23,671 bases of DNA, from the IMG/VR virus record IMGVR_UViG_3300031972_000163, positions 1 through 23,671 of that record; one strand, 5' to 3'. Below the pieces are notes generated by a model, which searched no databases, had not been told where the DNA came from, and worked only from the letters and a program-made list of their open reading frames with translations. This DNA is from a virus. The position numbers and the translations under genes were made by a program. Positions 1-19,199 of this stretch are shown here, piece after piece (the first letter of the stretch is position 1; each line of letters starts with the position of its first letter).

Positions 1-2777
1 AGGGCAGGATTTACTTTACCTCTAGCTACAGGGTTGTCAAAGTCATAGTAGGCAATGTCTGTCTCATCGTTGAAAGACTGTAGGTACTGCACTGATCTTA
101 CATCAGGTAGCATCCTCAGTGCTCTGTTAGTCATCTCAGCGCCACTATAGTCTAGCTTAACATCATCTGTAATTGCTAGTTCTCTGGTGAAAGGATTACC
201 TGCTTGATCATAGTCTGCCTGTCCTATCAAGTCTCTAGCTATTGCACCTGGCATGGTAAATGTAGCTAAGAAATCTCCAAACTTTTTCTCTAAATCTGGT
301 GTTATTTCTTGTTTTGCTGCAGCATCTAATATTGCAACAGGAATACCAAGATCAAAAGAAAATTCTGGTATACCACCAAGAACATCTTGCAAGTCTCTTT
401 TTAACTGATCTGTGTTTTCAAAAGAGGTAGGAAGACCATTCTCTTTTCTCCATGCCTGATCACCTAGATACATATGAAACATAGCAGCACCTAGTAAAGG
501 CTTGAGATCCTCTTGTGCTCCTAACTCATTCTTTATAGATCCGTAGTCTACTTCACCATCTCTATCTTTAGCTATCTGATACCCTGCAAACAACATCATA
601 GCTCCAGTGGCTTGACGTGCATACCTAGTGGCATCATCTTTAGCACCCTCAGTTAGACCTGATCTGTGCAACATCTCCCCAAGGATAGGAGCGTAGTCAG
701 ATACCATCTGTAGGTGATTACCTAAATATCTTGGAAAGGGAACACCTGCTGCTGCTGAAACAAGGAATGGTACTTTTCTATTTAAGTTTACTAACCCTCT
801 TGTTGTACTTGCTAGTACAGAGTCAGCACCTCTAAAGTCTCTCTGCATGGTAAGTCTGTTAGCGTCATCAACAGCAAGATTTAAATCTATACCCTCTGGT
901 AGATCTTCTAACTTAGTGTTAGATTTCAACCATTCAGACATCGACATACCCTTGTCTCTGAACTGTCTCTCTAAAGATCCATAGAAAATACCCTCTTTAA
1001 AAACAGAATCAGAAAGAGTGTTTGCCATGTTTACTAGTCTACCAGTTTTAGCTAGTACACCACTGCTTTCCATACCAACTTCAATCCTCATGGCTTGGTT
1101 GTACAAGCGCATGGACTGCTCTGGCATTTCTTCTAACATAATTTGTCGTAGGAGTTTAGCCTCTGTCACATTACCAACTACAAGACCCCTAATAACTGCT
1201 GTCATGTTAGGTATAAAAGTTTTTATTTGAGATGCGTCACCAGTAATCCCTTTGTAGATAGCCTTGTTAACTTGGTCTACCATATCTGTTCCAATAAGGA
1301 TACCTACGTTAGTCAAGTTACGCATTGTAGTGGCAGGTTGAGAAGTCATGAAAGATATTCTCATGGTGTCTAAGTCTTGCAAGAATTTATAAACACCACC
1401 CTTAGAGTTTCTAACTGCTGCTGCAGATATTTCCTGTGCGTCTTGACTGCTGATAGATGAAGCACCCTTAGAAAATAAAACATCTATATCAGATGCTTTA
1501 TCCATATCTATCTTAGCACCACGTTTTATAGCACTTTGAAATCCTAGAGTTTGACCTGCTCTTGATACCTCAGATAAGTAGATCATAGAGAACTCATCTT
1601 TGGAAAGACCATACTTGTCTTTTACATTTTTAAGTATCGTAAATACTTCCTGGGCTTCTCCATCTCTCAGCTTGTTGGCTATAGCCTCAGTGATCCTGAT
1701 GTCACCACCCTTTGTATCTAGCTTCAACTCTCTCATGAGGTCTACACTAGCAGCAGCAATACCTCTCATTGTTTGCACTGAAAGACCAGAACTAAACTCT
1801 GGGTTTGCTTTTGGATCTGACATTGCGTTGAGGATAGCTCTACCCTTGGCTACACGTTCAGGATCTAATCTGGCTTTTATCTTAGCACCTTTTACTCCTG
1901 CACGAGCAGACAGTATATCCTCTACATCAGCTACGATATTCATAGCTTGTTTCTTTTCAGCATCTGAAGCAGCTTTTATAGTTCCAAGAGATTTTTTAGC
2001 AGCCTCTTCTGCTTGCTTTTTAAATGTAGTGTTTCTTTGTAACATTACATCTTCTACTTTTTTAGCTCTACCTCTACCTACAAAACCAGAGATGTAACCT
2101 GTAGCTGCACCAAAAGTTCCTTCAGCTACAGCACCTACAGTAGAATCAAAGATTAAATCTTTTGTTGTGTATTCTGGACCTACCCCAAGTTCTTCTCTAG
2201 TTTCACCTTGTTGTTTACCCTGAAACCCAGAGACAGCAGCACCAGTTACTGCACCTGTACCTGCATCTTTTACAGACTGCCTTGCGATAGAAGACTTAAC
2301 TACATTCTTCTTTAAAGTTTCTTTCAGACCTGCTCTGACAGCTAACTGAACACCTTTAGATGCTACTTTAGCCCCAACTTTTCCAAGACCAAAACTAGCA
2401 AACCCCAAGTAAGTAGATGGTGCTGTAACCACACCTTCTGCAAAGTCTCCTAGACCGTCAAAGAAACCTGTACCTGCTTCTTTAGAACTATCCCATGCCT
2501 GGGTTAGCCTACCAAAAGCTTGTTTACCTTTATAGCTAAAGTCTTTATTGCGAACATAGTTTAAATCTTTTGTGGCAGTAACTTCGTTGACTGATTGTGC
2601 TCTCATGTGTTCTATGAAATCTTTGGTGAGATTCTCAAAACCCATTTCTTTTATTTCGTCTTTAGTATATTTATATCTACCACCACTAAAAAATCTAACT
2701 AAGTCTCTTTTGAAATCGTCATCCTCAACAAGATCAATAAAACTAGAGTCAGGTGCTTTTTGTACGTAAGTGCTCAT
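1..2777 (-). CDS. Large internal/ejection-type virion protein, partial (C-terminus beyond the window)
   Basis: My translation of the minus strand from the ATG at 2777 stays open through base 1, giving at least 925 codons with the stop outside the window. The ATG directly follows the TAA of the 309-aa gene (TAAATG), so the two are translationally linked. The N-terminus (residues 1-100) is charged and begins MSTYVQKAPD. Residues about 113-232 hold three Ala/Gly-rich, weakly hydrophobic stretches (around 113-135, 172-186 and 213-233) separated by basic segments. The remainder is mostly helical and polar, with a conserved-looking patch around MRNLTNV (485-491). I see no transglycosylase or peptidase motif. 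Size, helical character, Ala/Gly-rich stretches and last place in a late operon match the large internal virion proteins of podoviruses (T7 gp15/gp16 type), which leave the head with the DNA and line a channel through the envelope. That role is inferred from position and composition, not from a recognised domain. Confidence 0.82.
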   Translation of the reverse strand, partial: MSTYVQKAPDSSFIDLVEDDDFKRDLVRFFSGGRYKYTKDEIKEMGFENLTKDFIEHMRAQSVNEVTATKDLNYVRNKDFSYKGKQAFGRLTQAWDSSKEAGTGFFDGLGDFAEGVVTAPSTYLGFASFGLGKVGAKVASKGVQLAVRAGLKETLKKNVVKSSIARQSVKDAGTGAVTGAAVSGFQGKQQGETREELGVGPEYTTKDLIFDSTVGAVAEGTFGAATGYISGFVGRGRAKKVEDVMLQRNTTFKKQAEEAAKKSLGTIKAASDAEKKQAMNIVADVEDILSARAGVKGAKIKARLDPERVAKGRAILNAMSDPKANPEFSSGLSVQTMRGIAAASVDLMRELKLDTKGGDIRITEAIANKLRDGEAQEVFTILKNVKDKYGLSKDEFSMIYLSEVSRAGQTLGFQSAIKRGAKIDMDKASDIDVLFSKGASSISSQDAQEISAAAVRNSKGGVYKFLQDLDTMRISFMTSQPATTMRNLTNVGILIGTDMVDQVNKAIYKGITGDASQIKTFIPNMTAVIRGLVVGNVTEAKLLRQIMLEEMPEQSMRLYNQAMRIEVGMESSGVLAKTGRLVNMANTLSDSVFKEGIFYGSLERQFRDKGMSMSEWLKSNTKLEDLPEGIDLNLAVDDANRLTMQRDFRGADSVLASTTRGLVNLNRKVPFLVSAAAGVPFPRYLGNHLQMVSDYAPILGEMLHRSGLTEGAKDDATRYARQATGAMMLFAGYQIAKDRDGEVDYGSIKNELGAQEDLKPLLGAAMFHMYLGDQAWRKENGLPTSFENTDQLKRDLQDVLGGIPEFSFDLGIPVAILDAAAKQEITPDLEKKFGDFLATFTMPGAIARDLIGQADYDQAGNPFTRELAITDDVKLDYSGAEMTNRALRMLPDVRSVQYLQSFNDETDIAYYDFDNPVARGKVNPA

Positions 2778-3707
2778 TTAAGTTTCTGTCTCTTGGTTAA
2801 TAATTGTCTCTTCAACAGTGTCAGGAGATAAAGGCATTGGTCCTTGAAAAGGAGAAGGAACTTGAAATGTTTTAAAATTCTCTGCAATATCTCTCAAGTC
2901 TATGTTTGGATCTTCAGTCAGAGCGTCTACCCTGTTAAAAATATCTTTAATAACTTCAGCCCCACTTCTTGACTTTAATGGGTCAGACATTTCACTAACG
3001 TAAAAATCTACTGCGTTGTTTAAAATTTCACCTGAAGCATCTGGGTTTGTGAACTGTAATTGACCAGTGTTAGGATTTGTCGTTGTTTCAAGTTGTGTTT
3101 TTAAATTAGCATCTATCAATTCTCTAGCTGCTTTTATATCTGCAGGATCGTAGTCTATTAAACCCCTTCTATTAATGTCAAAAGGACTTATGTTTGGGGC
3201 TACACGAGTAGTCGGTGACGTGTTCATAAATTCAGAGATAGCCTCATCAAAATCATCCAGTGATGTAGCATGTATGGCTTCTACTAATTTATCAGAGCTT
3301 GGATCTTCTGCAGCCCCTAACTCAAAAGCGTACTTCATGGCTGCACCTAATTTTTCTTCAGGTACACTTGCAACAATAGCCTCACTAAATCTTTTTAACC
3401 CTGCTTTGTTTATCTTCTTATCAGGATCTTCAGACTGCTCTATCTTTTTTAAATAACCTACTGTGCTAGACAATTGACCAGTAGAATATAAAACTGCAGC
3501 AGCCTCTTCATCAATACCAAGTTTATCTGCTTCATCTAAAAGCTTTGCTCTTTCTGCTCTAGCTTCTTTTAGTTTAGCCCTCTCTTCAAAACCTGCTTTC
3601 AACATATAATCTTGAAGCATACCTTGTTTTGCTTTTAGGTACTCTCTGTTTTCTTTCATGAGATCTGCTATTCTACCTGCAGCAGCCCCAAAAACTATAC
3701 TAACCAT
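2778..3707 (-). CDS. Unknown virion-module protein, 309 aa, helical
   Basis: I do not recognise a family. The N-terminus (MVSIVFGAAAGRIADLMKEN) is a short Ala/Gly-rich helix that could associate with membrane or a partner. Residues about 20-65 are strongly charged (Lys/Glu/Ala-rich) and predicted coiled coil. The C-terminal third is acidic and proline-containing. Residues 107-117 (FSEAIVASVPE) closely resemble residues 125-134 of the adjacent upstream 170-aa protein (FDEAVASVPE). The start at 3707 is supported by GAGGT about 8 bases upstream, overlapping the end of the 170-aa gene with only a 4-base gap. The position between the lysozyme and the giant ejection-type protein suggests an internal virion or assembly role, by neighbourhood only. 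Confidence 0.8.
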   Translation of the reverse strand: MVSIVFGAAAGRIADLMKENREYLKAKQGMLQDYMLKAGFEERAKLKEARAERAKLLDEADKLGIDEEAAAVLYSTGQLSSTVGYLKKIEQSEDPDKKINKAGLKRFSEAIVASVPEEKLGAAMKYAFELGAAEDPSSDKLVEAIHATSLDDFDEAISEFMNTSPTTRVAPNISPFDINRRGLIDYDPADIKAARELIDANLKTQLETTTNPNTGQLQFTNPDASGEILNNAVDFYVSEMSDPLKSRSGAEVIKDIFNRVDALTEDPNIDLRDIAENFKTFQVPSPFQGPMPLSPDTVEETIINQETET

Positions 3708-3711
3708 TTTA

Positions 3712-4224
3712 CTACCTCGCCATCAAACCTTTAGGTTCTTCTTTTGTTTCTTCCTCAACTGGTTCTTCTTTCATAGACTCAGCAGCCTCTTTAACTAGTT
3801 CAAATCCTTTGTCTCTCTCACCTTCAGGTACTGATGCAACAGCCTCATCAAAAAGAGAGGCACGTTCAGCCATAGTCATTTCATCAGGTTTAAATGTTTC
3901 TTTGTAATTTACCCCTGCCATATCAGCAGCTTTCATCATAAAGTCTCTGACGATAGGTTCTATTATAAGACTTACATCTATGCTGTGAATACCTGAACCC
4001 ACTGCTGCTGTCATTATGGATTCAGATAGTGTCTTTGCAGGTATTCCAAACTCAAGAAGGTCTAGTACGTTATCTATAACATCCTCATCTGCTATCCTAT
4101 CAATGTGAAACTTAATAGCGTCATTAGGATCTGTTATTTCAGGCGGTCTTTCCCAAGGATAATTCTTAGGATAGTCCGTAAGAGATTGTCCTGGCACTGC
4201 TGCCATAAGTGCTGCTTCTGTCAT
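3712..4224 (-). CDS. Unknown virion-module protein, 170 aa
   Basis: The start at 4224 abuts the TAG stop of the lysozyme gene (0-base gap). The N-terminus carries a proline-rich stretch (PGQSLTDYPKNYPWERPPE, residues 11-29), then a helical core with hydrophobic patches (DNVLDLLEFGIPAKTL, 51-66; SIDVSLIIEPIVRDF, 81-95), and an acidic Glu/Lys tail ending KGLMAR. The PGQSLT...P.ERPPE opening looks like a conserved family found in marine phage structural modules, but I cannot attach a function. No catalytic motif, signal peptide or clear membrane segment is visible. The short segment FDEAVASVPE (125-134) is echoed in the next gene. Confidence 0.8.
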   Translation of the reverse strand: MTEAALMAAVPGQSLTDYPKNYPWERPPEITDPNDAIKFHIDRIADEDVIDNVLDLLEFGIPAKTLSESIMTAAVGSGIHSIDVSLIIEPIVRDFMMKAADMAGVNYKETFKPDEMTMAERASLFDEAVASVPEGERDKGFELVKEAAESMKEEPVEEETKEEPKGLMAR

Positions 4225-4992
4225 CTAGTAACCCTCGTTAAATAATTTAAGTTCTGCTGCTCTTCTTTTTATAAGACCATCATTAATTTTACCACCTGCA
4301 TACTTGTACTCTGGTAACATATCAGCAATCTCTTCATCACCTCTTGTGCCATTGTCTGTTAACTTTCTCAAGTTACCTGCCCCTAAATTATAAGTAAAAC
4401 TTGTAAGAGCATCTACTTGATTTTCGTTCCAGTCATAACCTGCTGTTTCTTTTAGTTTTAAAACAGTTTTACGTGCAGCATCTAAATCTTTTTTCATAAG
4501 TTCTCTGGCTTCTGGCTCAGTTATTGTTTGTTTTTTACTGGTGGCTTTTGTTCCGTAGCCTATAGATGTTTGTTTAAAATCATCGTAAGCAGTTGGACTA
4601 AAATCTTCAAGTTCTATTATAAACTCAACTAAGTTAGAGGGCGTTTTAGAACCTTCTTTATCAGGTAAAGATGTGTTTTGTGTAGTTTTTATACCTAACT
4701 CTTCTCTCTTTTTTGATAACTCAGGAGATTCATTTTCACTTGCAAAAACCTCATTTAGTATTTCCCCCCAACCACCTGTGTAAGCAAGCATAATATTAGA
4801 ATCATCCTTTGATTTATTTTCAGAATCATTTTGTATTCTCCTAACACCTTCTCTAGTTTCACTAAAATCAAAATCAGGATTACCAAGAGCTTTTCTTTGA
4901 CGTTTAACTCCAGGATCAGCTACATTCAACTCAGGATTACCCTGTTCAAGCATCATTTTTTTTCTTCTTTTATCTAGAAATGAGTTTAACAT
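4225..4992 (-). CDS. GH24 phage lysozyme (muramidase) with N-terminal extension
   Basis: The protein has 255 aa. Residues about 118-255 form a T4-lysozyme/RrrD-like glycoside hydrolase family 24 domain, which cleaves the MurNAc-GlcNAc bond of peptidoglycan. The active-site block reads ELEDF...AYDDF...SIGYG: Glu129 is the expected general acid, Asp138 the second triad residue, and the third position, usually Thr before IGYG, is Ser143 (Thr142 is just before it). The Asp-to-Ser spacing is one residue shorter than in T4 lysozyme. A second family block, NQVDALTSFTYNLGAG, supports the call. The first ~117 residues are charged, low in hydrophobics and have no signal peptide or anchor, so release would need a holin unless the protein is packaged in the virion. 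It lies between internal virion-type genes. AAGGA lies about 8 bases before the ATG. Lysis endolysin or virion-associated lysozyme are both possible. Confidence 0.9.
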   Translation of the reverse strand: MLNSFLDKRRKKMMLEQGNPELNVADPGVKRQRKALGNPDFDFSETREGVRRIQNDSENKSKDDSNIMLAYTGGWGEILNEVFASENESPELSKKREELGIKTTQNTSLPDKEGSKTPSNLVEFIIELEDFSPTAYDDFKQTSIGYGTKATSKKQTITEPEARELMKKDLDAARKTVLKLKETAGYDWNENQVDALTSFTYNLGAGNLRKLTDNGTRGDEEIADMLPEYKYAGGKINDGLIKRRAAELKLFNEGY

Positions 4993-5001
4993 GTTTAATC
5001 C

Positions 5002-8000
5002 TTAATTAAATAAATTTAAACCAGAAAATGCTTTTAGAGCCAACTCCCCAATAAGATTACCAGTTTGTTCTTTAGCCCCTATCTTAGCCATTAGTTCTGC
5101 AACATCTATCTCAGCATCAGCAGCCATTTTCTGAAGTATAATACTGTTAGCCCTGTCAGCGTTGCTCTCTGACACTTGGAAAGCCATAGATAGTATATCT
5201 CTTTCTCTCTGCCATATTGCATCAAGGTTAGTAGATGTCAAAGCGTTTATAGTCTGAGCAAAAGCCATGTTGCTTTCGTTCTGTGCAGCAGTGTTAAGTG
5301 TCGCTAAGTTTTGTCTCCACTGAGCGTTAGCCTGTGCTATCACCAAACCGTTCTGTGCGTTAAACAAATCTCTTTGTTGTTGTATCTGTGAGTTAAACTC
5401 TCTCAGAGCGTTGACACTGTTGACGTTGAACTGATCCATAGCATTTGCTTGAACAGCGTTGAACTGTGATGTCTGACCTGCTAAGTTAGCAAAGAACTGG
5501 TCTGTTTGATTTTTGTTTGCTGCATTAAATTGTTCAGCAGCGTTCTCTGCAGCCTGATCAGTAAACAAAGCCTGTATGTTTTGTTGCGCTTTGAACACCT
5601 CTGTCTGCTGTCTGTTCGACAGGTTAGCCATGTCCATCTGTAAGAAGTTAGCTGCGTTCTGTACAGCAGCCTGTTGTCTGTTGGATAGGTTAGCCATGTC
5701 TAGTTGAGCTAGAGCAGCAGCCTCTGCCATTACCATAGCTTGTCTGTTAGACAGGTTGTTTAAGTTTACTGTGTTAGCTGCACGAGCATCTTCTAGAGCT
5801 ATCTGTTGTTCAGCAGTAAAGTTCATGTTAGCTACATCAGCAATCTTAGCTGCATTTTGCACACGAGCCTGGAACGCTTGGTCAAACTCTTGCCCTATAA
5901 ACTGAGCACGTTGTTGTGCTGCAAGCATAGCACGTTGCTGTCTGTTAGACAAGTTTTGTGATTCAAACTGTGCCTGTGTCTGTGCATCCATCTGGGCAAT
6001 GGGTAGTGCAGCCTCCATAGTAGCTTGTATGATAGCCTGTCCTGCCATACTAGATGCACCTAGACCACGAGCAGCCATCGTAGCCATAGCCTGTCTCATT
6101 GATCCTGCAGCCCAAGGAGGTGTATTGCCACCCTCAAACTGATTCATAAGTCCTTCTAGCTGACCTGCAACTGTTGCCTGTTTAGAGGGTGTGGCTTCTG
6201 CAGCTTGTATTGCTTCAGTAAATTTAGAAGCTTTAGTAGCATCTGCTACACCAGATATTATTTCACCTTCTTGTATTTCTCTAGCATCAGGTGCATCTAC
6301 TTTTATAAAATCACCTAATGCAGCTTCTAATCCTGAAACAGAGGTGGTTTCTTGTTGAGCAGCATTTATTATATCTGAAACTTCACCCTGTTCTGCTGCA
6401 AGTTTATCTGTTTCAGATTGTACTTGAGGAGATACAGTAGTAAAGTCAGCAGTAGTAATGTCTGTAGGGGTAGGCATTTCTGCTTGTGTTACTGCCCCTG
6501 TTGTAGCCGCTTCAGCAAACGGAGCCATAGGTGTAGTCATACCTGCATCTACTGGTATAAATTCTTCGGCAGTAGGTTGTATCCCTGCTATTGGAGCTTG
6601 GATAGGTTGCATTGTCTGACCTACCAAGTTAGCGCTCTGTTGAGCTAGGGGATTGTTTATAACAGGGGCAGGAGGAGCAGTTGTTACAGTCGTACCTTCT
6701 TGAGCACCCATACGCATACCGCCCATATTCATCATAGCTTGTCTGTATTTACCCATACGTGCAGCAGCAGCAGGGCTAGACTGTAAAAAGTTATCAAGCT
6801 GATTATCAGGAGCGTCCTCTGGAAAACCTAAAAACTTTCTAGCTAGGGTAACATCTCCACCTAGAGACATACCCATATTATCTGAAGCTGTTGGTTGTTC
6901 TACTGTCTGTTGTTCTGTCATTGATGCTTGACGTACAAACCCAGGTGGTATGTAAGTAATGGGTTTACCGTTAAACTCAGTGACAATTATTACTTGATTA
7001 GTTTGTGGGTTTATGTACGGAACTTGCTGATATCCAGAGGCAATCTGCTCACCTGATCCTGGAGTAGAAGTAAGTATTGTTTGTGGCACTGCACCTGCAG
7101 TACCTGCATAACTTGTTTTGTAAGTCACTTGTCCAGGAACAGCAGACAGTCCTGCAGTCTGTACAGGTGTAGCAACAGTTCCTGTCTGAGGCACAGAACC
7201 TGGCATTACAAAAGGTGAAGCCTGTGTTGGTTGTGTTTGAGTTACAGGTGCAACCTGTTGAACAACAGTTTTTGGAGTACTTGGGTCTATGGGAGCCACT
7301 TCACCAGGTTTTAACTGAACCACCTCTGTTGAAGGTGTAATCTCCACGATCTCAGGTCTATCTACAGTTCTATCAACAAAAGCTGTGTCTTGCAGACTAG
7401 TGCCTCCTCCTGGACTTGGACCATCGGTAAGACTAGTGTCTGTTAAATTAGTATCAGTAGTGTCATCATCAGTATCAGTGGTAGTAGAAGTAGTAGAAGT
7501 AGTAGTAGTAGTATTAGCAAGTCCTGTTTTTAAATTACTAAATGCATCTAAAACTCTTCTGACATTTTTTCCTCTAGTGCCTGTTTTTGTTACATTACCA
7601 AATGCATCTGGAGTTGAATTTATCCTAGAAACACTGTCTACTCTTTCACGAGTACCGTCAGGGTTTATCTTTTCAATAAAACTAGAGTTCTTACCCGATA
7701 CAGCTAGATACTGTGTACCGTCAGCCTCTGTAACGCTATCATAAACAGCATAACCTCTACCTTCATTAAAAACTCTATTATAGGAATTAGCAGTTTGACC
7801 ACCTCCTATATACAACTTAGGTGTATCTGCACTAGCGCCACTATAGTCACCAGTATTTGCACCTTCTAGAGCGTTATACTTTTTAAGTATTGCATTGGCT
7901 TGATTAATTACATCTCGCCTATCCCTAGGATTTACATTAGCAGTTACAGCAGAAAAATCTCCAGACTGAGCAGCTTCTAGTAGAGCCTTGTCTCTTTCTG

Positions 8001-8076
8001 TTTGACGTGCTTTATCTCGTGCATCATCACTACTATAGTTACGTGTAACACCATATACGTCTGTGACTTCTACCAT
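5002..8076 (-). CDS. 1024-aa virion protein with hendecad (11-residue) helical repeats
   Basis: Large protein of no enzymatic family that I recognise. Residues 1-185 are mixed and may form a small domain (LYIGGGQTANSYN, YAVYDSVTEADG). Residues 188-218 are a Thr/Asp-rich linker encoded by an ACT-type trinucleotide run. Residues 230-560 are Pro/Thr/Gln-rich and probably extended. Residues 700-910 are Ala/Gln/Asn-rich and repetitive: NLSNRQ(Q/A) recurs at 708, 774, 796 and 818 (multiples of 22 residues), NFTAEQQ fits the same register at 752, and Phe occurs at exactly 850, 861, 872, 883, 894 and 905. Such an 11-residue period is the signature of a hendecad coiled coil. The C-terminus (910-1024) is helical and mostly without repeats. 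It follows the holin-like gene by 10 bases, with AAGGA about 7 bases before the ATG. An internal core or ejection protein is the best guess, and a tail-associated rod the alternative. Confidence 0.85.
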   Translation of the reverse strand: MVEVTDVYGVTRNYSSDDARDKARQTERDKALLEAAQSGDFSAVTANVNPRDRRDVINQANAILKKYNALEGANTGDYSGASADTPKLYIGGGQTANSYNRVFNEGRGYAVYDSVTEADGTQYLAVSGKNSSFIEKINPDGTRERVDSVSRINSTPDAFGNVTKTGTRGKNVRRVLDAFSNLKTGLANTTTTTSTTSTTTDTDDDTTDTNLTDTSLTDGPSPGGGTSLQDTAFVDRTVDRPEIVEITPSTEVVQLKPGEVAPIDPSTPKTVVQQVAPVTQTQPTQASPFVMPGSVPQTGTVATPVQTAGLSAVPGQVTYKTSYAGTAGAVPQTILTSTPGSGEQIASGYQQVPYINPQTNQVIIVTEFNGKPITYIPPGFVRQASMTEQQTVEQPTASDNMGMSLGGDVTLARKFLGFPEDAPDNQLDNFLQSSPAAAARMGKYRQAMMNMGGMRMGAQEGTTVTTAPPAPVINNPLAQQSANLVGQTMQPIQAPIAGIQPTAEEFIPVDAGMTTPMAPFAEAATTGAVTQAEMPTPTDITTADFTTVSPQVQSETDKLAAEQGEVSDIINAAQQETTSVSGLEAALGDFIKVDAPDAREIQEGEIISGVADATKASKFTEAIQAAEATPSKQATVAGQLEGLMNQFEGGNTPPWAAGSMRQAMATMAARGLGASSMAGQAIIQATMEAALPIAQMDAQTQAQFESQNLSNRQQRAMLAAQQRAQFIGQEFDQAFQARVQNAAKIADVANMNFTAEQQIALEDARAANTVNLNNLSNRQAMVMAEAAALAQLDMANLSNRQQAAVQNAANFLQMDMANLSNRQQTEVFKAQQNIQALFTDQAAENAAEQFNAANKNQTDQFFANLAGQTSQFNAVQANAMDQFNVNSVNALREFNSQIQQQRDLFNAQNGLVIAQANAQWRQNLATLNTAAQNESNMAFAQTINALTSTNLDAIWQRERDILSMAFQVSESNADRANSIILQKMAADAEIDVAELMAKIGAKEQTGNLIGELALKAFSGLNLFN
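7423..7515 (-). repeat. Thr/Asp-rich low-complexity linker, trinucleotide repeat
   Basis: In the + strand this is a run of agt/gta/gaa triplets, densest at about 7479-7515, that encodes Thr-Thr-Thr-Ser-type sequence followed by TDTDDDTTDTN (residues 188-218 of the 1024-aa protein). It is in frame and probably a flexible linker. The triplet repeat could change copy number by slippage without shifting the frame. Confidence 0.8.
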
Positions 8077-8086
8077 AATCTATTCC

Positions 8087-8341
8087 TTATTTACCCATTG
8101 TCATCCATACCGCACCTGCAATAAACGTCAGCAGTGCGACAGTGGTTACTTTAACTATTGTTGACCAGACAGATTTACGTGTGTCTCTCCAAGCCTCTAA
8201 CAAACTTCTCATCTCTATAATATCCCTAGCTGCGTCATCATCAAGCAAACCTATAGAACGCAGAGCCTCCTTTGCCCCACGTCTAGCTGCGTTGTCTAAC
8301 ATCTCCTCTAGATCGTCAGAAGTAAGTTTGATGTCAGCCAT
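8087..8341 (-). CDS. Small single-span membrane protein, holin candidate (DUF6127-like)
   Basis: The protein has 84 aa: an acidic/helical N-terminal region (LTSDDLEEMLDNAARRGAKEAL), a central RSLLEAWRDTRKS block, then one hydrophobic helix at about residues 60-80 (VKVTTVALLTFIAGAVW) and a very short C-terminal tail. The EMLDNAARRGAKEAL...GLLDDDAARDI...LLEAWRD pattern matches what I remember of the DUF6127 family, found in alphaproteobacterial phages and gene-transfer clusters and often placed beside lysis genes. The size and single C-terminal span fit a class III-type holin or a spanin-like accessory, so lysis is inferred. The start at 8341 overlaps the end of the upstream gene by 8 bases, so translation is coupled. 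The lysozyme lies one gene further on. Confidence 0.82.
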   Translation of the reverse strand: MADIKLTSDDLEEMLDNAARRGAKEALRSIGLLDDDAARDIIEMRSLLEAWRDTRKSVWSTIVKVTTVALLTFIAGAVWMTMGK

Positions 8342-9212: not shown

Positions 9213-11282
9213 TTATGATATTGCTGCTATGGCATAGAAGATAAACGTAGCACCGTCAGTGTTAATCCCAGAGTTTGTTGATAAAGAAAAACCACCAGAA
9301 TAAGGATCTATGTAATCATAAGCACTTGTTTCGGCATCCGTAGTATTAAGATATAAAGCTTTTTCAGTACCTGCAACAATACCTCTTACAGAATCAAACA
9401 CCCACCAATTACCAGTGCCACTGGTTTCTTTTATAAGTATAAAACTAGGTGTGTCACCAGTAAAGCCACAGTCTACATTAATAGTGGAAGCACCTGCATT
9501 TCCAGTATAGCTTCCCACCTTGGATACACCTGCTAAGGTAGCGAAAAGGTAGGCTATGAAGTAGTCACCATTTGTATTATTAGCGCCTGTGGCTATGGTA
9601 AAAACACTTTCTGTTGGCGTAGTGTTATGCCATGTATATTGGCTTGTGGAAGCAGCGGCTGTTGAGTTTAATGTTAGATATTTAGTATTTCCAATATCTT
9701 TATGATAAACATCCCAATCACCTCCAGTAGAGTTACGTCTTCTCACCCACATCATTTCTGGAACAACACCAAGATTATGGCTTACAGTACGCCCTGCTGT
9801 GTCGTTCCCAATGTAAGTAACCACATCGAAATAGCCTCTAGCTCTTTTCCACATCCATGTTTGATCGTTTGTGTCTGCACCATTTGCGCTATTACCCCAA
9901 CCATTCATATAATTAAAAGAGTAGAAAGCTGATGACGCTTCTGCGTTAGTAGCGTTTGGCCGTAAGTTATAGCCTTGTATTAGTCTTGCTGAGTTTGTCC
10001 AAGCACTACTGCCGTTTGCAATGTCCTTAAACAAAACCATATCAACAAGATGATTAGCTGAAAAATCTGGGTCAGGGCCATTGTAAGTTGTTTCAATCCT
10101 AGTTGTAATATCAAACACATCAGACGCTGCAGTTGGGGTTTGCATACCACCACGTCTAATTGCCGTGTAAATAAATGTCTGACCAGAAGAACCACTTATA
10201 AGAAAGCCGCTTGAGTTAAGATAAGATGCAGGAGAATACGAACCCTCTGCGAGATTGCTGTTAGCTAACATCATTGCCCCTGCTTGATTTGGCATCGCAG
10301 TCCAACCTCTTATGTTGTCGTTAATAATCCAATTGCCCGTGCCATCTGTACGTTTATAAATTATCCATGAAGGCTCAAACCCTAAATCAACAAGACCTTG
10401 ACCAGAGCCATCTAAAGTAACGCTTCCACACTTGATAATGTCCTGATCTCCAGGTTCACCAAAGCCACCGTCATTATTGTTATGTGCGAATAGGTAGGCT
10501 ACGTATGTGTCACCAAAGTCATTTACATCATCGTCACCACCTACTGTAAAATGAGTGCTTGTCGGTGCAGTATCGTTCCAAAAACTACTGCTGTCAGCTT
10601 CTGCATTTGTTAAATTAAGATTTATAACGTAATCTTCTGGAGCATTACCACCGTCTAAACCTCTGTGATAAACTCGCCAATTACCAGTATCGTTTGTGCA
10701 TTTTACCATAATCATGCCAGGAACTGAACCAAGATTATGGCTAATTGCTTGTGCTGAACTCGTACCTGTGTACGTCACAACATCAAAAAATTTAGGCTGC
10801 TTCCTAAAGGTCCAAGAGACGAATGAACTATAGATGCCACCATCTCCATTATTAACAGTAGTACTGTCACCTAAAGAAAAACCATTAGAATTAAAAGCAG
10901 TTACGGAGCCGTTTAGGTTGTTAGAGGCGTCTGTGTCGTTAGACTCTAAATCTTTATTAACACCTCTTTCAGTATCAAATAGGGCATGGTTGTCGGCTGC
11001 AAGTCTTTTCTTAATCCAAACCAAACCACCACTGCCACTTAAATCTATATTATTTGTTATTGTTTGTGTTCCACCATTTCCAGTATATATGTGACACTGA
11101 AACAAAGCATCAACAAAAGCAGCAGGATTAATGTTAGCTGCGTTAGGCCAGTTACCACCTTTGATAAGATCTAGTGCTTCATTAATATCCCACACACCTG
11201 ATGCTTTGCTATCTTTAAAGTTACCATCAGGCACTACTTTAGTAGTAGATATAACGTTAGCTGTGAAGTCTCTAGTTGACAT
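9213..11282 (-). CDS. Six-repeat tail fibre / receptor-binding-type protein, 689 aa
   Basis: I place the start at 11282 (MSTRDFTANV) because GGAGGG lies 8 bases upstream and the ATG overlaps the previous stop as TAATG. An in-frame ATG at 11312 would add ten residues inside the previous gene with no such site. After a 60-residue N-terminal region (probably the attachment part, with WDINEALDLIKGGNWP), residues about 62-689 hold six diverged units of 90-110 residues. A typical unit runs: YTG, (T)ISHNLG, VPGMIMVK, GNWRVYH, then WNDTAPTSTHFTVG and DTYVAYLF. Units 2 and 5 (about 164-266 and 483-580) are the closest pair; units 3 and 6 share GTGNW...D..RG. This resembles the DUF7483-type repeat of marine phage fibres (family name from memory). 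It is expected to be on the tail tip and to bind the host surface. No chaperone or lyase motif is seen. Confidence 0.85.
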   Translation of the reverse strand: MSTRDFTANVISTTKVVPDGNFKDSKASGVWDINEALDLIKGGNWPNAANINPAAFVDALFQCHIYTGNGGTQTITNNIDLSGSGGLVWIKKRLAADNHALFDTERGVNKDLESNDTDASNNLNGSVTAFNSNGFSLGDSTTVNNGDGGIYSSFVSWTFRKQPKFFDVVTYTGTSSAQAISHNLGSVPGMIMVKCTNDTGNWRVYHRGLDGGNAPEDYVINLNLTNAEADSSSFWNDTAPTSTHFTVGGDDDVNDFGDTYVAYLFAHNNNDGGFGEPGDQDIIKCGSVTLDGSGQGLVDLGFEPSWIIYKRTDGTGNWIINDNIRGWTAMPNQAGAMMLANSNLAEGSYSPASYLNSSGFLISGSSGQTFIYTAIRRGGMQTPTAASDVFDITTRIETTYNGPDPDFSANHLVDMVLFKDIANGSSAWTNSARLIQGYNLRPNATNAEASSAFYSFNYMNGWGNSANGADTNDQTWMWKRARGYFDVVTYIGNDTAGRTVSHNLGVVPEMMWVRRRNSTGGDWDVYHKDIGNTKYLTLNSTAAASTSQYTWHNTTPTESVFTIATGANNTNGDYFIAYLFATLAGVSKVGSYTGNAGASTINVDCGFTGDTPSFILIKETSGTGNWWVFDSVRGIVAGTEKALYLNTTDAETSAYDYIDPYSGGFSLSTNSGINTDGATFIFYAIAAIS

Positions 11283-11295
11283 TACTGAAGCCCTC
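11274..11295 (-). promoter_or_regulatory. Ribosome binding site and TAATG junction fixing the fibre start
   Basis: Reading the minus strand, GGAGGG (11296-11291) precedes ATG 11282-11280 by 8 bases, and the stop TAA of the upstream kelch-like gene (11284-11282) shares its last base with that ATG. This selects 11282 over the upstream ATG at 11312 and implies coupled translation. Confidence 0.8.
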
Positions 11296-12241
11296 CATGT
11301 CCTGGGGAACAACCTGCGGTATAGGTAGAACCAGTTATTAGATCACCAAAATCTGCAGCATCACCAGTGCTTGCTATGGTAATATATTGTATAACATTAC
11401 TGTCGCTTGATCCACCTGCCATAACACCAAATACGCTATCTGAAGTCCCTCCTACACCGTATTTAGCAGTCAACAAGTCTCCAAAATCTGTAGCGTTACC
11501 AGTGCTTGCTATAGTAATATAATCAATTACATTAATACCATTAAAAGAACCATCGCCACCACCTTGAAAGATACCTCTTGTTCCAGAAGATATACCACCG
11601 CCATTATAATATCTCCCGACTGTTAAATCTCCAAAGTCTGATGCATTACCTGTAGAGGCAATAGTGATATAGTCAATCGTGTTTGAAGTTCGTGGATCAG
11701 GGTCTCTGTAGCCACCTGCAAAGACACCCCTTGTTGAACTTGAAACACCCCCTGGACCGTCTCTTGATTCTGTTACATCACCAAAATCAGTAGCATTACC
11801 AGTTGAGGCTATGGTGATATAATCAATTACATTTGTGTAACCACTTGCAGGGCCACCTGTGGCAATAACCCCTCTTGTTGAATTTGATGCACCTCCAGGC
11901 ATTTGTCTTGCTACTGTTAAGTCTCCAAAATCACTTGCATTACCTGCTGCTGCAAAAGTAACATACTCTATTACATTAGTTTTTGCACTTGCATTACCAT
12001 CATAACCCCCTGCAAAAATACCTCTTGTTGAACTTGCAATACCAGAAGCAGCACCACCACCTCTTGATATGGTCATATCACCGAAATCAGTAGCGTTACC
12101 TAGAGAGAGAATATTAATTTGGTCTATATTAGTTATAGTGCCTGACCCTGCTGCAAAAAGACCGATAGTAGGAGGGCTAGGCCAATCTGAGGCATACTGT
12201 GCTTGTGTTGTGAGTGACCACACGCCATTAAAGTTAGGCAT
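11282..12241 (-). CDS. Kelch-like repeat virion protein, 319 aa (paralogue of the upstream gene)
   Basis: A short N-terminus (MPNFNGVWSLTT) similar to that of the preceding gene (MPRYNGGFIG) is followed, from residue ~26, by six units of about 48 residues. The unit reads RGVFAGG, a variable loop, N.IDYITIASTGNATDF, GDLT.AR, then GG.SS.T, repeated to the C-terminus. Blade-sized units with a conserved RG(V/I)F.GG strand are reminiscent of kelch/RCC-type beta-propellers, so a six-bladed propeller is plausible, although I cannot confirm the fold. The last unit ends GDLITGSTYTAGCSPGHGGLQ. The start at 12241 lies 3 bases after the upstream stop, with AGGGA before it. It is likely an outer virion or fibre-tip protein that contacts the host. 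It lacks the FN3 domain of its neighbour and appears to derive from the same ancestor by tandem duplication. Confidence 0.83.
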   Translation of the reverse strand: MPNFNGVWSLTTQAQYASDWPSPPTIGLFAAGSGTITNIDQINILSLGNATDFGDMTISRGGGAASGIASSTRGIFAGGYDGNASAKTNVIEYVTFAAAGNASDFGDLTVARQMPGGASNSTRGVIATGGPASGYTNVIDYITIASTGNATDFGDVTESRDGPGGVSSSTRGVFAGGYRDPDPRTSNTIDYITIASTGNASDFGDLTVGRYYNGGGISSGTRGIFQGGGDGSFNGINVIDYITIASTGNATDFGDLLTAKYGVGGTSDSVFGVMAGGSSDSNVIQYITIASTGDAADFGDLITGSTYTAGCSPGHGGLQ

Positions 12242-12244
12242 TAC

Positions 12245-13462
12245 TTAATTCCCTGATGCTGAAGCGTCACGTGCAGAGTGTCTTGCTTGTGTTAAATCGC
12301 CAAAATCCGTTCCATTTCCTGCCGAAGCTATGGTAAAATATTCTACGGTATTAGATGATGCTGAAGTTGTATCTGAAAACCCAACAGAAGCTAAAGCTCT
12401 TGTTGCATTAGCAACGATATTACCACTATTCATCTTTTCAGATGTTGTAAGACTTCCAAATGCAGTTGCATTTCCAAGAGTTGCGATTGTTACACTTTCA
12501 ATTCTACCCTTTGTTGAAGCCCCATCATTGTCATTGCCGATCATTGCAGTGGTTCCATTAGAATATGCTGCACATTGTTCATGCTCACCAGTTAAATCGC
12601 CAAAGTCCGTTCCGTTGCCTGTGGATGCTATAGTGATATATTCTATGCTGTCTCTGTTTCCTGATGTGCCACCAATAATCAACCCTCTCGTAAAGCTACT
12701 TGCACCTGCCTGACCATTTTGAGTTACATTTGTGTCACCGAAATCTGTGGCGTTACCTGTGGAGGCAATAGTAATATAATCCATAACATTAGTATTATCA
12801 CCTGTTGTCCCACCGCAAAATACACCCCTTGTGACACTTGACACACCTGCTAGTCGTTCTCTAGCTAAAGTTAAATCTCCAAAGTCTTCCGTATTACCTG
12901 TTGAAGCAAATGTTATATATTGAATACGATTTGTTCTTGAACTTTCTTCACCCCCTCCAAAAACACCCCTTGACCCACTGCTTAAACCTGCGGCATTATC
13001 ATTACCTGCCGCAAGATTTCCAAAATCAGTAAAGTTGCCTGTTGTTGTAATAGTGGCGTAATCCATAACATTTGACCGATTATAACTAGGTGGGAAAACT
13101 CCACCTGCAATAATACCACGATTACCGTAGTTTGGTGCAACAGGAGTAAAACTAGAACTAGCATCACTGGGAGCAGATGTGCCATAAACATTTATAGCCC
13201 ACACTTTAGCTGTAGCTGCAGTATCATTAGTTAAACTAGTTACAACAATAGGAGAAGATGTACCTGTGTTAGAACCTGCACTGTAGTCTGTACCATCTGT
13301 GCTAACCTGCACAACAAAACTTGTAGTAGCTGATGTACCACCACCTGCATCAGTAAATGCTACACTTACCTGTGTATCACCTGCTGTAACAGAATCTATT
13401 GTAGGTGCATCAGGTGCATCTAATCCGTCAGTGCCTATAAAACCACCGTTGTATCTGGGCAT
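12245..13462 (-). CDS. FN3 domain plus kelch-like repeat virion protein, 405 aa
   Basis: Residues about 16-108 form a fibronectin type III domain: APTIDSVTAGDTQVSVAF, then the STDGTDYSAG turn and AKVWAINVYGTSAPS as the last strands, an arrangement common in phage structural proteins. From ~113 to the end there are six ~48-residue units of the form RGVFGGG...NVMDYITIASTGNATDFGDLT, the same repeat as in the next gene. Units 5 and 6 are more diverged (TAMIGNDNDG, RALASVGFSD). The start at 13462 has AAAGG upstream, overlapping the stop of the 120-aa gene. FN3 domains on virions usually give weak carbohydrate or surface binding. With the possible propeller, the protein looks like a surface-exposed adhesin or fibre component. 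No signal or membrane segment is present. Kelch-like naming is by pattern only. Confidence 0.83.
   Translation of the reverse strand: MPRYNGGFIGTDGLDAPDAPTIDSVTAGDTQVSVAFTDAGGGTSATTSFVVQVSTDGTDYSAGSNTGTSSPIVVTSLTNDTAATAKVWAINVYGTSAPSDASSSFTPVAPNYGNRGIIAGGVFPPSYNRSNVMDYATITTTGNFTDFGNLAAGNDNAAGLSSGSRGVFGGGEESSRTNRIQYITFASTGNTEDFGDLTLARERLAGVSSVTRGVFCGGTTGDNTNVMDYITIASTGNATDFGDTNVTQNGQAGASSFTRGLIIGGTSGNRDSIEYITIASTGNGTDFGDLTGEHEQCAAYSNGTTAMIGNDNDGASTKGRIESVTIATLGNATAFGSLTTSEKMNSGNIVANATRALASVGFSDTTSASSNTVEYFTIASAGNGTDFGDLTQARHSARDASASGN
13139..13417 (-). other. Fibronectin type III domain coding segment
   Basis: This segment encodes residues 16-108 of the 405-aa protein. The pattern P.APTI..V..GDTQVSV.F, a central VQVSTDGTDY strand and the closing WAINVYGTSAPS are typical of FN3. 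The equivalent segment is absent from the downstream paralogue, so FN3 was either gained here or lost there. Confidence 0.75.
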
Positions 13463-16515: not shown

Positions 16516-18255
16516 CTAACGTCTTGCTCCTACTAAATATTCTAATTGAAACCCTTTGAGGGAATATGGTGCCGTTTCTCCACCATCTTTAATTCTTAAT
16601 GCTACAGAAAAACCTGATCCTTCCACTGACTGTCTTACAAGTGGCTGTGATGGACCGCCAAAAACAAACTGTGCAGCACTGCTAGTTGTACTAAAAGTTG
16701 CAGAACCAAACTGTGCTGCAACCTGAGAACTGTCTAAAGGGTATGCTGCAGGTCTCGCAGAGTCAGATGCCTCGTTGTCATAACGAACAAAAAGATCTGC
16801 ATCTATTGCTGACTCAGGTTTAAAGTTAAGGATAACTCTTTGCATGTGTTTTCTAACACCAGTGTCTCCAAAACTTAAATCAGGACTTCTGTATCTTGCT
16901 AGTATTGCTGTACCATCAAAAGTATTACCTTTTTCTTGTCTGTGAACATATCCTGAAAAATCACCGTGTATAACTGTAACATCTCCATCAACAACTAAAG
17001 TGTCTGTGGCTGATGGTTTTACACCACGTATTTCTGCAAACTCGAACTTGTCTGCCCTTCTAACACAAACAATACCTCTTGTTAATTTTTCACCTTGTCC
17101 TGCTTTTGAAAAGAATATTCTATACTGTGTTTTATCTGGTATTACTACACTTTCAAATACTGTAGAGTCTTTAATATTAGCATCAAAAATAGACTGCACA
17201 TTTTGTGTAATCGCACCAAGAGCCGTATCACCAATTCTTGCAGTAGCAGCAACAGTTCTAAGTCCATCAGGGCCAAGAAATAATAAATCACCTGCAAATT
17301 CTTGTATTGTGTCTTTATTTACACAACCAATATCTCTGGTAACTGGTTGTACAGCAAAGTCACTAACAGTAGATCCTGTCATTTTAAATATTCTGTTTTC
17401 ACAAAATATAAATAAAGAGTCTCTAAATACTTTTAGTCCGACAATGTTATCATCTACGTTAATAGTTCCTGCACCGTCACCTGATTGAAAACCATCTTCA
17501 TCAAAAGTTTCACTAAAAACTAAGGTCTGTGGTGTACTAGACTTACCTGCATAGAACATATGATTTTTAAAAGCTACTACTATTGTAGAACCTGCTACAG
17601 AACTTTCACTAACATCTGTTGCTGATAAAGAAGAGTTAAAAATAGTTGGGGCATTTGCACCATCAACAACTATAATCTTTTCGTTACCATCAAAGTTATA
17701 TCTCTCAAAACTATATTTACCTGCACTAGTTCTGCCAGTGTCTCTTTCAGTCCAAGATTCTGATACTACATCATCAACAGCATGATCAGCAGCAGTTGTA
17801 CTTGATGTAGCACGAGTTACACCTGTAAAACTAGTAGAGGTAACTCCAGTATACGTAAATATTTCATCGTTAATCTGCAGTGTTCCACTAGAAGAAAATC
17901 CTGTTGTAGAATCTACAGTTATAGTTCCAGAGCCTGTCATACCTGTGCTAGAAACAATTTTAGTTGCAAGCTCAGTGGATGAAGAACTAAATATTTTTTC
18001 ACCTCTGGCTGCTAACACTTTATCTGCAAAAGTAGCAACCATAAGAATTTTTTCACTAGAGTCAGATGTTTGAGGTACTTGTTGATTTACGTATTTACGA
18101 AAACCGTTTATTCTTCTGTAACCACCCTCAATGTCAGGCTCAAAGTTTTCTAACTCTAACGCTTCACCTGGTTGCATTAAGAACGTAGAACGATTTAAAA
18201 CTAAACCACCCTCACAATTAAATGCTGCAGGTTGTGCTTGGGATAGATCTGGCAT
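16516..18255 (-). CDS. Tail nozzle / tubular protein B-like (T7 gp12 or P22 gp10 type)
   Basis: The protein has 579 aa. The N-terminus GGLVLNRSTF, PGEALELENFEPDIEGGYRR with GF following, is the characteristic opening of the nozzle (tail tubular B / DNA stabilisation) proteins of short-tailed phages. The body shows successive beta-propeller-like strands (VATFADKVLAARGEKIF; EKIIVVDGANAP; NHMFYAGKSS; DSLFIFCENRIFKM; GDLLFLGPDGLRTVA). Residues about 101-166 interrupt this with an inserted small beta domain (GTLQINDEIFTYTGV...FTGVTRAT...AADHAVDDVV). The flanks KIFSSSSTE and WTERDTGRTSAG would join smoothly without it. The start at 18255 overlaps the adaptor stop as TAATG. The nozzle closes the tail tube until infection and then opens the channel. 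T7-type versus P22-type cannot be decided by eye. Confidence 0.85.
   Translation of the reverse strand: MPDLSQAQPAAFNCEGGLVLNRSTFLMQPGEALELENFEPDIEGGYRRINGFRKYVNQQVPQTSDSSEKILMVATFADKVLAARGEKIFSSSSTELATKIVSSTGMTGSGTITVDSTTGFSSSGTLQINDEIFTYTGVTSTSFTGVTRATSSTTAADHAVDDVVSESWTERDTGRTSAGKYSFERYNFDGNEKIIVVDGANAPTIFNSSLSATDVSESSVAGSTIVVAFKNHMFYAGKSSTPQTLVFSETFDEDGFQSGDGAGTINVDDNIVGLKVFRDSLFIFCENRIFKMTGSTVSDFAVQPVTRDIGCVNKDTIQEFAGDLLFLGPDGLRTVAATARIGDTALGAITQNVQSIFDANIKDSTVFESVVIPDKTQYRIFFSKAGQGEKLTRGIVCVRRADKFEFAEIRGVKPSATDTLVVDGDVTVIHGDFSGYVHRQEKGNTFDGTAILARYRSPDLSFGDTGVRKHMQRVILNFKPESAIDADLFVRYDNEASDSARPAAYPLDSSQVAAQFGSATFSTTSSAAQFVFGGPSQPLVRQSVEGSGFSVALRIKDGGETAPYSLKGFQLEYLVGARR
17758..17955 (-). 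other. Inserted beta domain in the nozzle gene
   Basis: Residues about 101-166 of the nozzle protein have the pattern TITVDSTTGFSSSGTLQI, then EIFTYTGV, FTGVTRA, and a closing DHAVDDVV. The same pattern is inserted in the adjacent adaptor gene. The two copies are clearly diverged, so neither is a recent copy of the other. Confidence 0.75.
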
Positions 18256-19199
18256 TAGGAAACTACTCCACCTGCAAAGTTAGCAGAACCTCTAGGGGCA
18301 ATAATAACTGTGGATCTTACATACTCATATTTGTTGATAAGCAGACTTTGCATATTTTTAATACCTTGCTCAAACCTAGCAAAGTTTAATTGATACTGTT
18401 GCGTTTCACCCCGATACTGATAAACAAAAGCAGATGCACCATCTATAATTACAGGTGCAAATCTATCTGGAATACTTGTGGTGTCTCCATGTGCTGATAG
18501 GTCAGATGGAAATGTAAAGTAATCAAAAATAAGTGTGTATTGTTTATCTGGATAAGGATATAGTAAATAGTTATTGTCGGGGGTTCTAACTATATTTCTA
18601 GGAACACCACCACCATCAAACTGGGTCACTGTAGTGCCGTTTGATATCGCTGCTGCTGTTGTACTATTTGCACCTCTAGTGCAGCCTGTAAAATCGTTAC
18701 CTGATATACCTGTATATGTTATTTGTTCTCCACCTATGTACAGAGTTCCTGTTGAACTAAAGTCTGTTGTAGATGCAACAGTTATTGTTGTTACGGCTGC
18801 AGATAACCCATCTGTTGCATTGATAGTTGTTGTTGCAACATCATCCTCTTCATTAGGATAACCTTTTTCTATGTACTCGTTGTAGTTAAGAAGTGTTAAA
18901 TTATTTCCTGCAGCATTAACATCATCATCTTTTTTAATTCTAGCAGTAGCGTAGTCTATTGATTTAGTATCTGTTGGTGCAGTATACCTACACACACCTG
19001 GAGTCAAAGTAGATGTATTCTGTGCATGATTAAAAGAGTATCCAAACTCTCTTTGATTTATATATCTGATGGCTTCATTAACGGCATTTTGACACTGTAC
19101 TTGAACACCCCTAGCGTTAGCAAAAGTAGTAGAAGTAAGCGTCACTTCGTTCATTCGTGTAATTACATCATTCGTTAATGATAGAAATGTTAAAGCCAT
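18255..19199 (-). CDS. Tail adaptor / tubular protein A-like (T7 gp11 type)
   Basis: The protein has 314 aa. An N-terminal helical part (FLSLTNDVITRMNEV, then VQCQNAVNEAIRYINQRE) and the block RNIVRTPDNNYLLYPYPDKQ with YTLIFDYFTFPSDL are the recognisable core of marine podovirus tail tubular A / gatekeeper proteins. The C-terminus (DRFAPVIIDGASAFVYQYRG...FEQGIKNMQSLLINK) is helical, as in the family. Residues about 122-196 are an insertion between NYNEYIEKGYPNEEDD and GGGVPRNIV: a small beta domain with GTLYIGGEQITYTGI, FTGCTRGANST. The protein forms the ring between portal and nozzle. The start at 19199 has AAGGA about 8 bases upstream, following the 52-base gap that contains the UUCG hairpin. 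Confidence 0.86.
   Translation of the reverse strand: MALTFLSLTNDVITRMNEVTLTSTTFANARGVQVQCQNAVNEAIRYINQREFGYSFNHAQNTSTLTPGVCRYTAPTDTKSIDYATARIKKDDDVNAAGNNLTLLNYNEYIEKGYPNEEDDVATTTINATDGLSAAVTTITVASTTDFSSTGTLYIGGEQITYTGISGNDFTGCTRGANSTTAAAISNGTTVTQFDGGGVPRNIVRTPDNNYLLYPYPDKQYTLIFDYFTFPSDLSAHGDTTSIPDRFAPVIIDGASAFVYQYRGETQQYQLNFARFEQGIKNMQSLLINKYEYVRSTVIIAPRGSANFAGGVVS
18612..18836 (-). other. Inserted beta domain in the adaptor gene
   Basis: Residues about 122-196 of the adaptor. The pattern TITVASTTDFSSTGTLYIGG, EQITYTGI, FTGCTRGA, NGTTVTQF matches the insert of the neighbouring nozzle gene. Removing it would leave a continuous adaptor core. Confidence 0.75.

Follow-up and report, generated by a model that had tools for sequence, protein, structure and literature searches.

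What does a short-tailed phage do with a protein that carries a long array of 11-residue repeats? The window analysed here is a 23,671-nt (23.7-kb) virus contig (IMGVR_UViG_3300031972_000163, positions 1-23,671) of a marine short-tailed phage, and it encodes a large, unannotated protein of 1024 residues for which searches of PHROG, Pfam and PDB gave no matching family. The initial annotation singled out region 5362-5955 (minus strand), that is, residues 708-905 of this protein, as a hendecad repeat of some 200 residues that could form a coiled-coil rod, and suggested a channel or tether of the ejectosome, or a length-measuring element. The protein (ORF 5002-8076, minus strand) is laid out as follows.

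5002..8076, minus strand: hendecad-array protein, whole CDS, 1024 aa (ORF and homologues)
6190..8076, minus strand: residues 1-629, N-terminal region, variable among relatives (length comparison)
5977..6132, minus strand: residues 649-700, anchor A1, conserved helical hairpin 'P-W-A...ARGLGASS...ALPIAQxDA' (alignments and AF2 helices)
5560..5976, minus strand: residues 701-839, array in 22-residue register (repeat analysis)
5539..5559, minus strand: residues 840-846, DQAAENA, anchor A2 (alignments)
5317..5529, minus strand: residues 850-920, 11-residue register (QFNA/NQxxQF) with Phe every 11 residues (repeats and pLDDT of 72-90)
5005..5319, minus strand: residues 920-1024, C-terminal helix (AF2 and length comparison)

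The N-terminal region has no Pfam or PHROG match; it is largely T/P/Q-rich, and its residues ~190-400, which have this composition, are probably disordered. In alignments of relatives, the W, RG and PIA of anchor A1 are almost invariant, and the 11-residue register terminates at an invariant NxxW-R-R/Q, designated anchor A3. The C-terminal helix (~110 residues) has a constant length in most relatives, and the CRP-3 clade adds a Peptidase_S74 domain to it.

The 11-residue periodicity of the protein is real. NLSNRQ repeats are present where they had been reported, at residues 708, 774, 796 and 818 (spacings of 66, 22 and 22), as is a Phe every 11 residues, at 850, 861, 872, 883, 894 and 905. Self-identity at a shift of 22 is 0.317 over residues 696-840, compared to a mean of 0.110 and a maximum of 0.220 among 2000 shuffles; at a shift of 11 it is 0.201 over residues 696-915 (mean 0.111 and maximum 0.206, again for 2000 shuffles). 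A 22-residue unit, of consensus A-[QE]-[LMV]-[DE]-[LM]-A-N-L-S-N-[ER]-Q-Q-A-A-[VLI]-Q-N-A-Q-x-x, describes the array proper (~700-840) better, and an 11-residue unit the Phe part (~850-920).

Hundreds of viral contigs, and 27 phage records, contain homologues. The best matches are in podoviruses of the HMO-2011 type, which are among the most abundant phages known in the ocean (PMC9038755): Roseobacter phages CRP-1/2/9/13/345, Puniceispirillum phage HMO-2011 and pelagiphages HTVC103P/104P/115P/033P. More distant ones are in Vibrio phage CHOED, Aeromonas phages MQM1 and 1233, Pseudoalteromonas phage Slicky01, Sinorhizobium phage phiM6 and Rhizobium phages. Nearly all phage records with a homologue annotate it as 'hypothetical protein', and bacterial genomes scanned with one family member yielded no relative. 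One relative (L031, 1366-3957) is labelled 'huntingtin' in GenBank MW202701, evidently in error and on account of its Gln-rich array; in another contig (L016, 4304-7439) the homologous gene consists of two ORFs, split between positions equivalent to residues ~669 and ~677 of the window protein.

To examine how the array varies in length, we gathered relatives from IMG/VR (255 distinct sequences) and measured spans between three conserved anchors lying outside the array or at its edges: A1 (PxWA...ARGLxxSS...ALPIAQ), A2 (DQAAENA) and A3 (NxxWRR/WRQ). Eleven lengths occur for the A1-A2 span, each leaving a remainder of 1 modulo 11 (45, 67, 89, 122, 133, 199, 243, 309, 353, 463 and 683 in anchor coordinates, that is, differences of -88, -66, -44, -11, 0, +66, +110, +176, +220, +330 and +550). 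The A2-A3 span takes 7 values, from 48 to 114 by 11s and all equal to 4 modulo 11 (differences of -22 to +44 in steps of 11). Far from being absent in homologues, the 11-residue periodicity is thus kept in 255 of the 255 distinct relatives. No common remainder exists for moduli 7, 15 or 18, and the lengths of the N-terminal and C-tail regions in these proteins, taken as a control, are spread over all remainders modulo 11 with no preference. Since A2 is itself in register with the repeat, and a misassigned A2 would shift a span by 11, the analysis was rechecked with A1 (PIAQ) and A3 (WRR/WRQ) alone; between plain motif anchors flanking the array, 218 of 219 spans have the same remainder modulo 11, the single exception being off by +1. 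Measured from the start of A1, 13 sequences give -67 or -68, owing to an indel within this anchor, and from its end they give -66. If each further distinct span is counted as one independent event, the chance of such agreement is ~(1/11)^16, a value to be read as no more than a guide, since some of the steps come easily when a unit of 22 or 110 residues is duplicated in tandem.

Changes of the A1-A2 length are multiples of 22 except in one class, a clade of 10 sequences in which a loss of exactly 11 residues took one NLSN motif with it and left the flanks unchanged. Overall, arrays range from about 14 to 71 hendecads and the span across them from 151 to 778 residues (228 in the window protein). 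Two freshwater relatives have the long arrays of 71 hendecads in register (L255, the longest member) and 51 hendecads (L257), both with a 110-residue super-repeat; in L255 the best pair of adjacent 330-bp copies is 79% identical in DNA, on which basis the expansion of the freshwater arrays is probably recent. Such length quantisation is a rare and clean comparative signature, as would be expected if contacts all along the array maintained its helical phase.

What fold does the repeat adopt? AF2 was run on monomers only, with residues 630-1024 and 80 sequences as input, and predicts helix only (mean pLDDT 70.6, pTM 0.24), neither a globular nor a beta fold. The last helix is continuous over ~200 residues (821-1021), with a pLDDT of 72-90 over 850-989. 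In the NLSN part the pLDDT is about 49-69 and the helix breaks near 728-732, 749-754, 773-776 and 817-820. The longer freshwater version is likewise predicted as helix only (mean pLDDT 56.7, array ~41-65), partly continuous and partly in pieces at 22-residue spacing. In both models the array also includes uninterrupted helices 52-97 residues long, at low confidence. The model does not show one uninterrupted rod across the NLSN part, where the breaks come at low confidence. A Foldseek search of the model against PDB found nothing below an E-value of 8, and one against BFVD gave three hits in all at E < 0.001, which appear to belong to this same family.

The hydrophobic pattern fits a coiled coil less well than the initial annotation supposed. 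Fourier analysis of hydrophobicity placed the power at periods of 2.75 and 2.2 residues rather than at the 11/3 = 3.67 of a one-stripe hendecad coiled coil, and no significant 11/3 stripe appeared on the helical wheel: for large hydrophobic residues, R1 gave p=0.82 in the array and p=0.21 in the Phe part, in a test of low power (11 positions). A classical coiled coil is therefore not demonstrated, as these residues form no single significant stripe. Asn and Gln are very abundant and are spread round the helix (R1 p=0.66 on the same low-power wheel). The 2.2 and 2.75 periods prompted us to consider a beta-solenoid with a 22-residue coil and an Asn ladder; it is disfavoured by the lack of any strand in both AF2 models and by an array with almost no Gly and no Pro. 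An amphipathic 11-mer like those of apolipoproteins or LEA proteins was also rejected, as the hydrophobic moment at 98 degrees is not significant. Given a helix rise of 1.5 A per residue, the window's 228-residue span would measure ~34 nm as one helix and the longest span ~117 nm. The latter exceeds the usual podovirus head diameter, so that the longest forms at least cannot fit in the head as straight rods.

The position of the gene bears on its role. It sits at the 3' end of the structural operon, after the tail-fibre genes, with the genes downstream of it in the same operon. The neighbours are as follows.

8087..8341, minus strand: 84-aa DUF6127 protein with a C-terminal hydrophobic segment, upstream neighbour (domain match)
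4225..4992, minus strand: lysozyme (PF00959) with a ~127-aa N-terminal extension, next gene of the presumed ejection cassette (domain match)
3712..4224, minus strand: 170-aa cassette protein (BLASTP to CRP2_46, HMO_24, phiM6_27, CHOED_15 and MQM1_20)
2778..3707, minus strand: 309-aa protein at the place of the relatives' ~500-aa protein (synteny)
3..2777, minus strand: largest and final cassette protein, 925+ aa, truncated where the window stops (BLASTP)
18255..19199, minus strand: SU10-type adaptor protein (PF24175, E 2.9e-14)

In HMO-2011, CRP-2, phiM6, CHOED and MQM1 alike, the hendecad protein is followed (with small genes between) by proteins of ~170-190, ~300-600 and ~800-1500 aa, and each of the five encodes a homologue of the 170-aa protein. 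BLASTP matches the last cassette protein to CRP2_44 (1121 aa) and HMO_22 (1128 aa); no homology was detected to SU10 gp24 or 7-11 gp24. The adaptor places the tail module, as judged from its domain match, in the phiEco32/SU10 style.

Other features of the operon were recorded in passing. The adaptor and the next tail protein (16516-18255) contain a similar inserted segment (TTITVASTTDFSSTGTLYIGGEQITYTGI... and SGTITVDSTTGFSSSGTLQINDEIFTYTGV..., respectively), over which the same baseplate wedge PHROGs are matched. Two adjacent tail proteins of 319 and 405 aa (11282-13462) have kelch-like repeats with a recurrent 'YITIASTGNATDFGDL' motif. An ORF open at the window end (22126-23670) starts with DDIPAQLSEGEYVVPADVVRYYG, which we take to be a motif that recurs among functionally uncharacterised phage proteins; its remainder is low-complexity and Lys/Ala-rich.

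Domains added to the relatives give a further view of the family. The members of CRP-3, CRP-738 and CRP-235 end in a Peptidase_S74 domain that most members do not have, and S74 likewise ends 7-11 gp20 ('DNA ejection protein'), AH02 gp11 (PHROG 'DNA ejection') and DB2 gp18. The CRP-3 member matches phrog_6121, 'virion structural protein', over residues 258-618 (3.6e-13), although much of this match possibly comes from the S74 tail. A transglycosylase/endolysin-like N-terminus is present in the CRP-235 member (L035, 1285-3816), which shares the S74 C-terminus with L030 and L033. The N-termini of other relatives are mosaic, with LysM, RTX or DUF4214 and, in one of them, a cold-shock DNA-binding domain.

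These observations lead us to propose, with a probability of about 0.5, that the protein is the first, array-bearing member of an ejection (internal virion) protein cassette of HMO-2011-type podoviruses, in which the array aligns subunits; a conduit role is inferred. The protein is probably a rod- or tube-like part that helps push the phage DNA through the host cell envelope, a step for which a literature search found no description in HMO-2011-type phages. Nor did the literature searches turn up virion proteomics for any member of the family. This reading is founded on gene position, which agrees with the ejectosome assignment made at the outset, on the S74 tail common to one subclade and known podovirus ejection proteins, on the mosaic N-termini including LysM and transglycosylase-like domains, and on the phase-preserving indels, the helix-only AF2 models and the SU10-type adaptor. 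In SU10, gp20-24, encoded at the equivalent place, are in the virion and are gone after genome release, that is, they are ejection proteins (PMC9509320). Copies of the window protein would exit the head before the DNA does and line up against one another via the array; a gain or loss of 11 residues, or three helical turns, would then keep every contact in phase. The resulting Asn/Gln-rich alpha-helical bundle or tube would form or line a conduit across the envelope, and the variable N-terminus may serve as a leader with an optional cell-wall module. Such in-phase packing predicts that deletions of 11 and 22 residues are tolerated and those of 4 or 7 are not. Counting against the ejection reading are the want of any PHROG, Pfam or PDB match or hhalign homology to known ejection proteins, the low-confidence breaks in the NLSN part, the absence of a significant hydrophobic or amide stripe at 11/3, and the occurrence of S74 tails on tail fibres too; moreover, a ~5-fold variation in span is hard to reconcile with a fixed periplasm width.

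The breaks could also be taken at face value. It is possible, with a likelihood somewhat below that of the ejection reading as a whole, that the NLSN part zigzags, with every 22 residues contributing a helix of ~18, in a compact stack where N-L-S acts as helix stop, staple and N-cap, and that only ~821-1021 form a rod. Position 9 of the 22-mer is indeed mostly S, N, D or T (0.41, 0.26, 0.15 and 0.11), typical helix N-cap residues, with N-L before it and Q at N3 after it; the predicted breaks at the NLSN part, their 22-residue spacing in part of the longer array, the changes by multiples of 22 in all A1-A2 classes but one and the extreme length of the longest array as a single helix all point the same way. 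The class of 10 sequences that lost half a unit with its NLSN argues against a zigzag, as do the uninterrupted helices that AF2 also draws through the array, at low confidence.

The location after the tail-fibre genes, and the S74 domain typical of trimeric tail fibres in some relatives, would suit an external fibre or needle-like trimeric tail protein that is not ejected. We consider this unlikely: the same domain terminates the DNA-ejection proteins of 7-11, AH02 and DB2, most members have none, the window protein has no receptor-type C-terminus, and the gene order fits ejection cassettes. A DNA-organising or scaffold-like protein, packaged with the genome and forming no conduit, could account for the N/Q-rich helices and the cold-shock domain of one relative, but it is distinctly improbable, given that a separate scaffold-like gene (21122-22069, beside the capsid gene) exists and that the LysM and transglycosylase-like domains indicate the cell wall. 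Least credible by far is the length-measuring role raised by the initial annotation. Quantisation in 11s would be compatible with a ruler, but SAR11 phages HTVC033P and HTVC115P have genomes of similar size (53.1 and 54.8 kb) and spans of 164 and 318 residues, which, with the range of spans seen over the whole family, speaks against a ruler for periplasm or genome; short tails, besides, have no tube length to set.

How does the candidate ejection protein compare with known systems? The ejection proteins of SU10, phiEco32 and 7-11 (phrog_4287 and phrog_6121; SU10 gp21-22, 7-11 gp20) occupy the same place in the tail module: the window gene, too, lies at the end of the tail operon, as the first of several cassette genes. 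They are of the same Q/N/A-rich helical type, share the S74 tail with the CRP-3 subclade, and have the SU10-type adaptor as a counterpart in the window operon; unlike the window protein, they have no recognised long 11-residue array. The window protein did not match the phrog_4287 and phrog_6121 profiles, and hhalign found no homology to SU10 gp21/gp22, 7-11 gp20 or AH02 gp11, the one hit being the S74 tail of a single row. T7 gp14/gp15/gp16 and P22 gp7/gp20/gp16 are also helical and form a multi-gene cassette that ends the structural operon; a peptidoglycan hydrolase in or beside the cassette is a shared feature too, in the window as a separate lysozyme gene. Membership of the T7 gp14-16 or P22 ejection families was rejected, with no PHROG or PDB match. 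With hendecad helices and coiled coils in general the family has in common the 11-residue period and phase-preserving indels of 11, but it differs from them by the lack of an 11/3 stripe and by a 22-residue super-unit with a conserved NLSN.

The closest working analogue, rather than a detectable relative, appears to be the tube of phiX174 DNA pilot protein H, a decameric alpha-helical DNA tube (PMC7354561): profiles of A1 and A3 gave no H match among PDB sequences. Both proteins have long helical 11-residue repeats and are Gln/Asn-rich, and the lumen of the H tube, built of three hendecads and heptads, is lined mostly by N/Q/R (PMC7354561). H comprises three hendecads, a transition segment and eleven heptads in 121 residues, compared to ~14-71 hendecads here; phiX174 is an ssDNA phage without a tail, whereas the window phage is tailed; H is oligomeric, whereas the window protein is known from monomer prediction; and injection of a viral protein as a DNA conduit, shown for H, is for the window protein suggested by analogy. 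It is a tentative and rather doubtful extension that the family is to tailed dsDNA phages what the H tube is to phiX174: a conduit for DNA delivery that is alpha-helical, rich in Asn and Gln and built from hendecads. Its length would evolve freely by whole hendecads (and by 110-residue super-repeats in freshwater relatives) and exceed 100 nm if fully extended. Were this so, the DNA-tube principle of phiX174 may extend to tailed phages.
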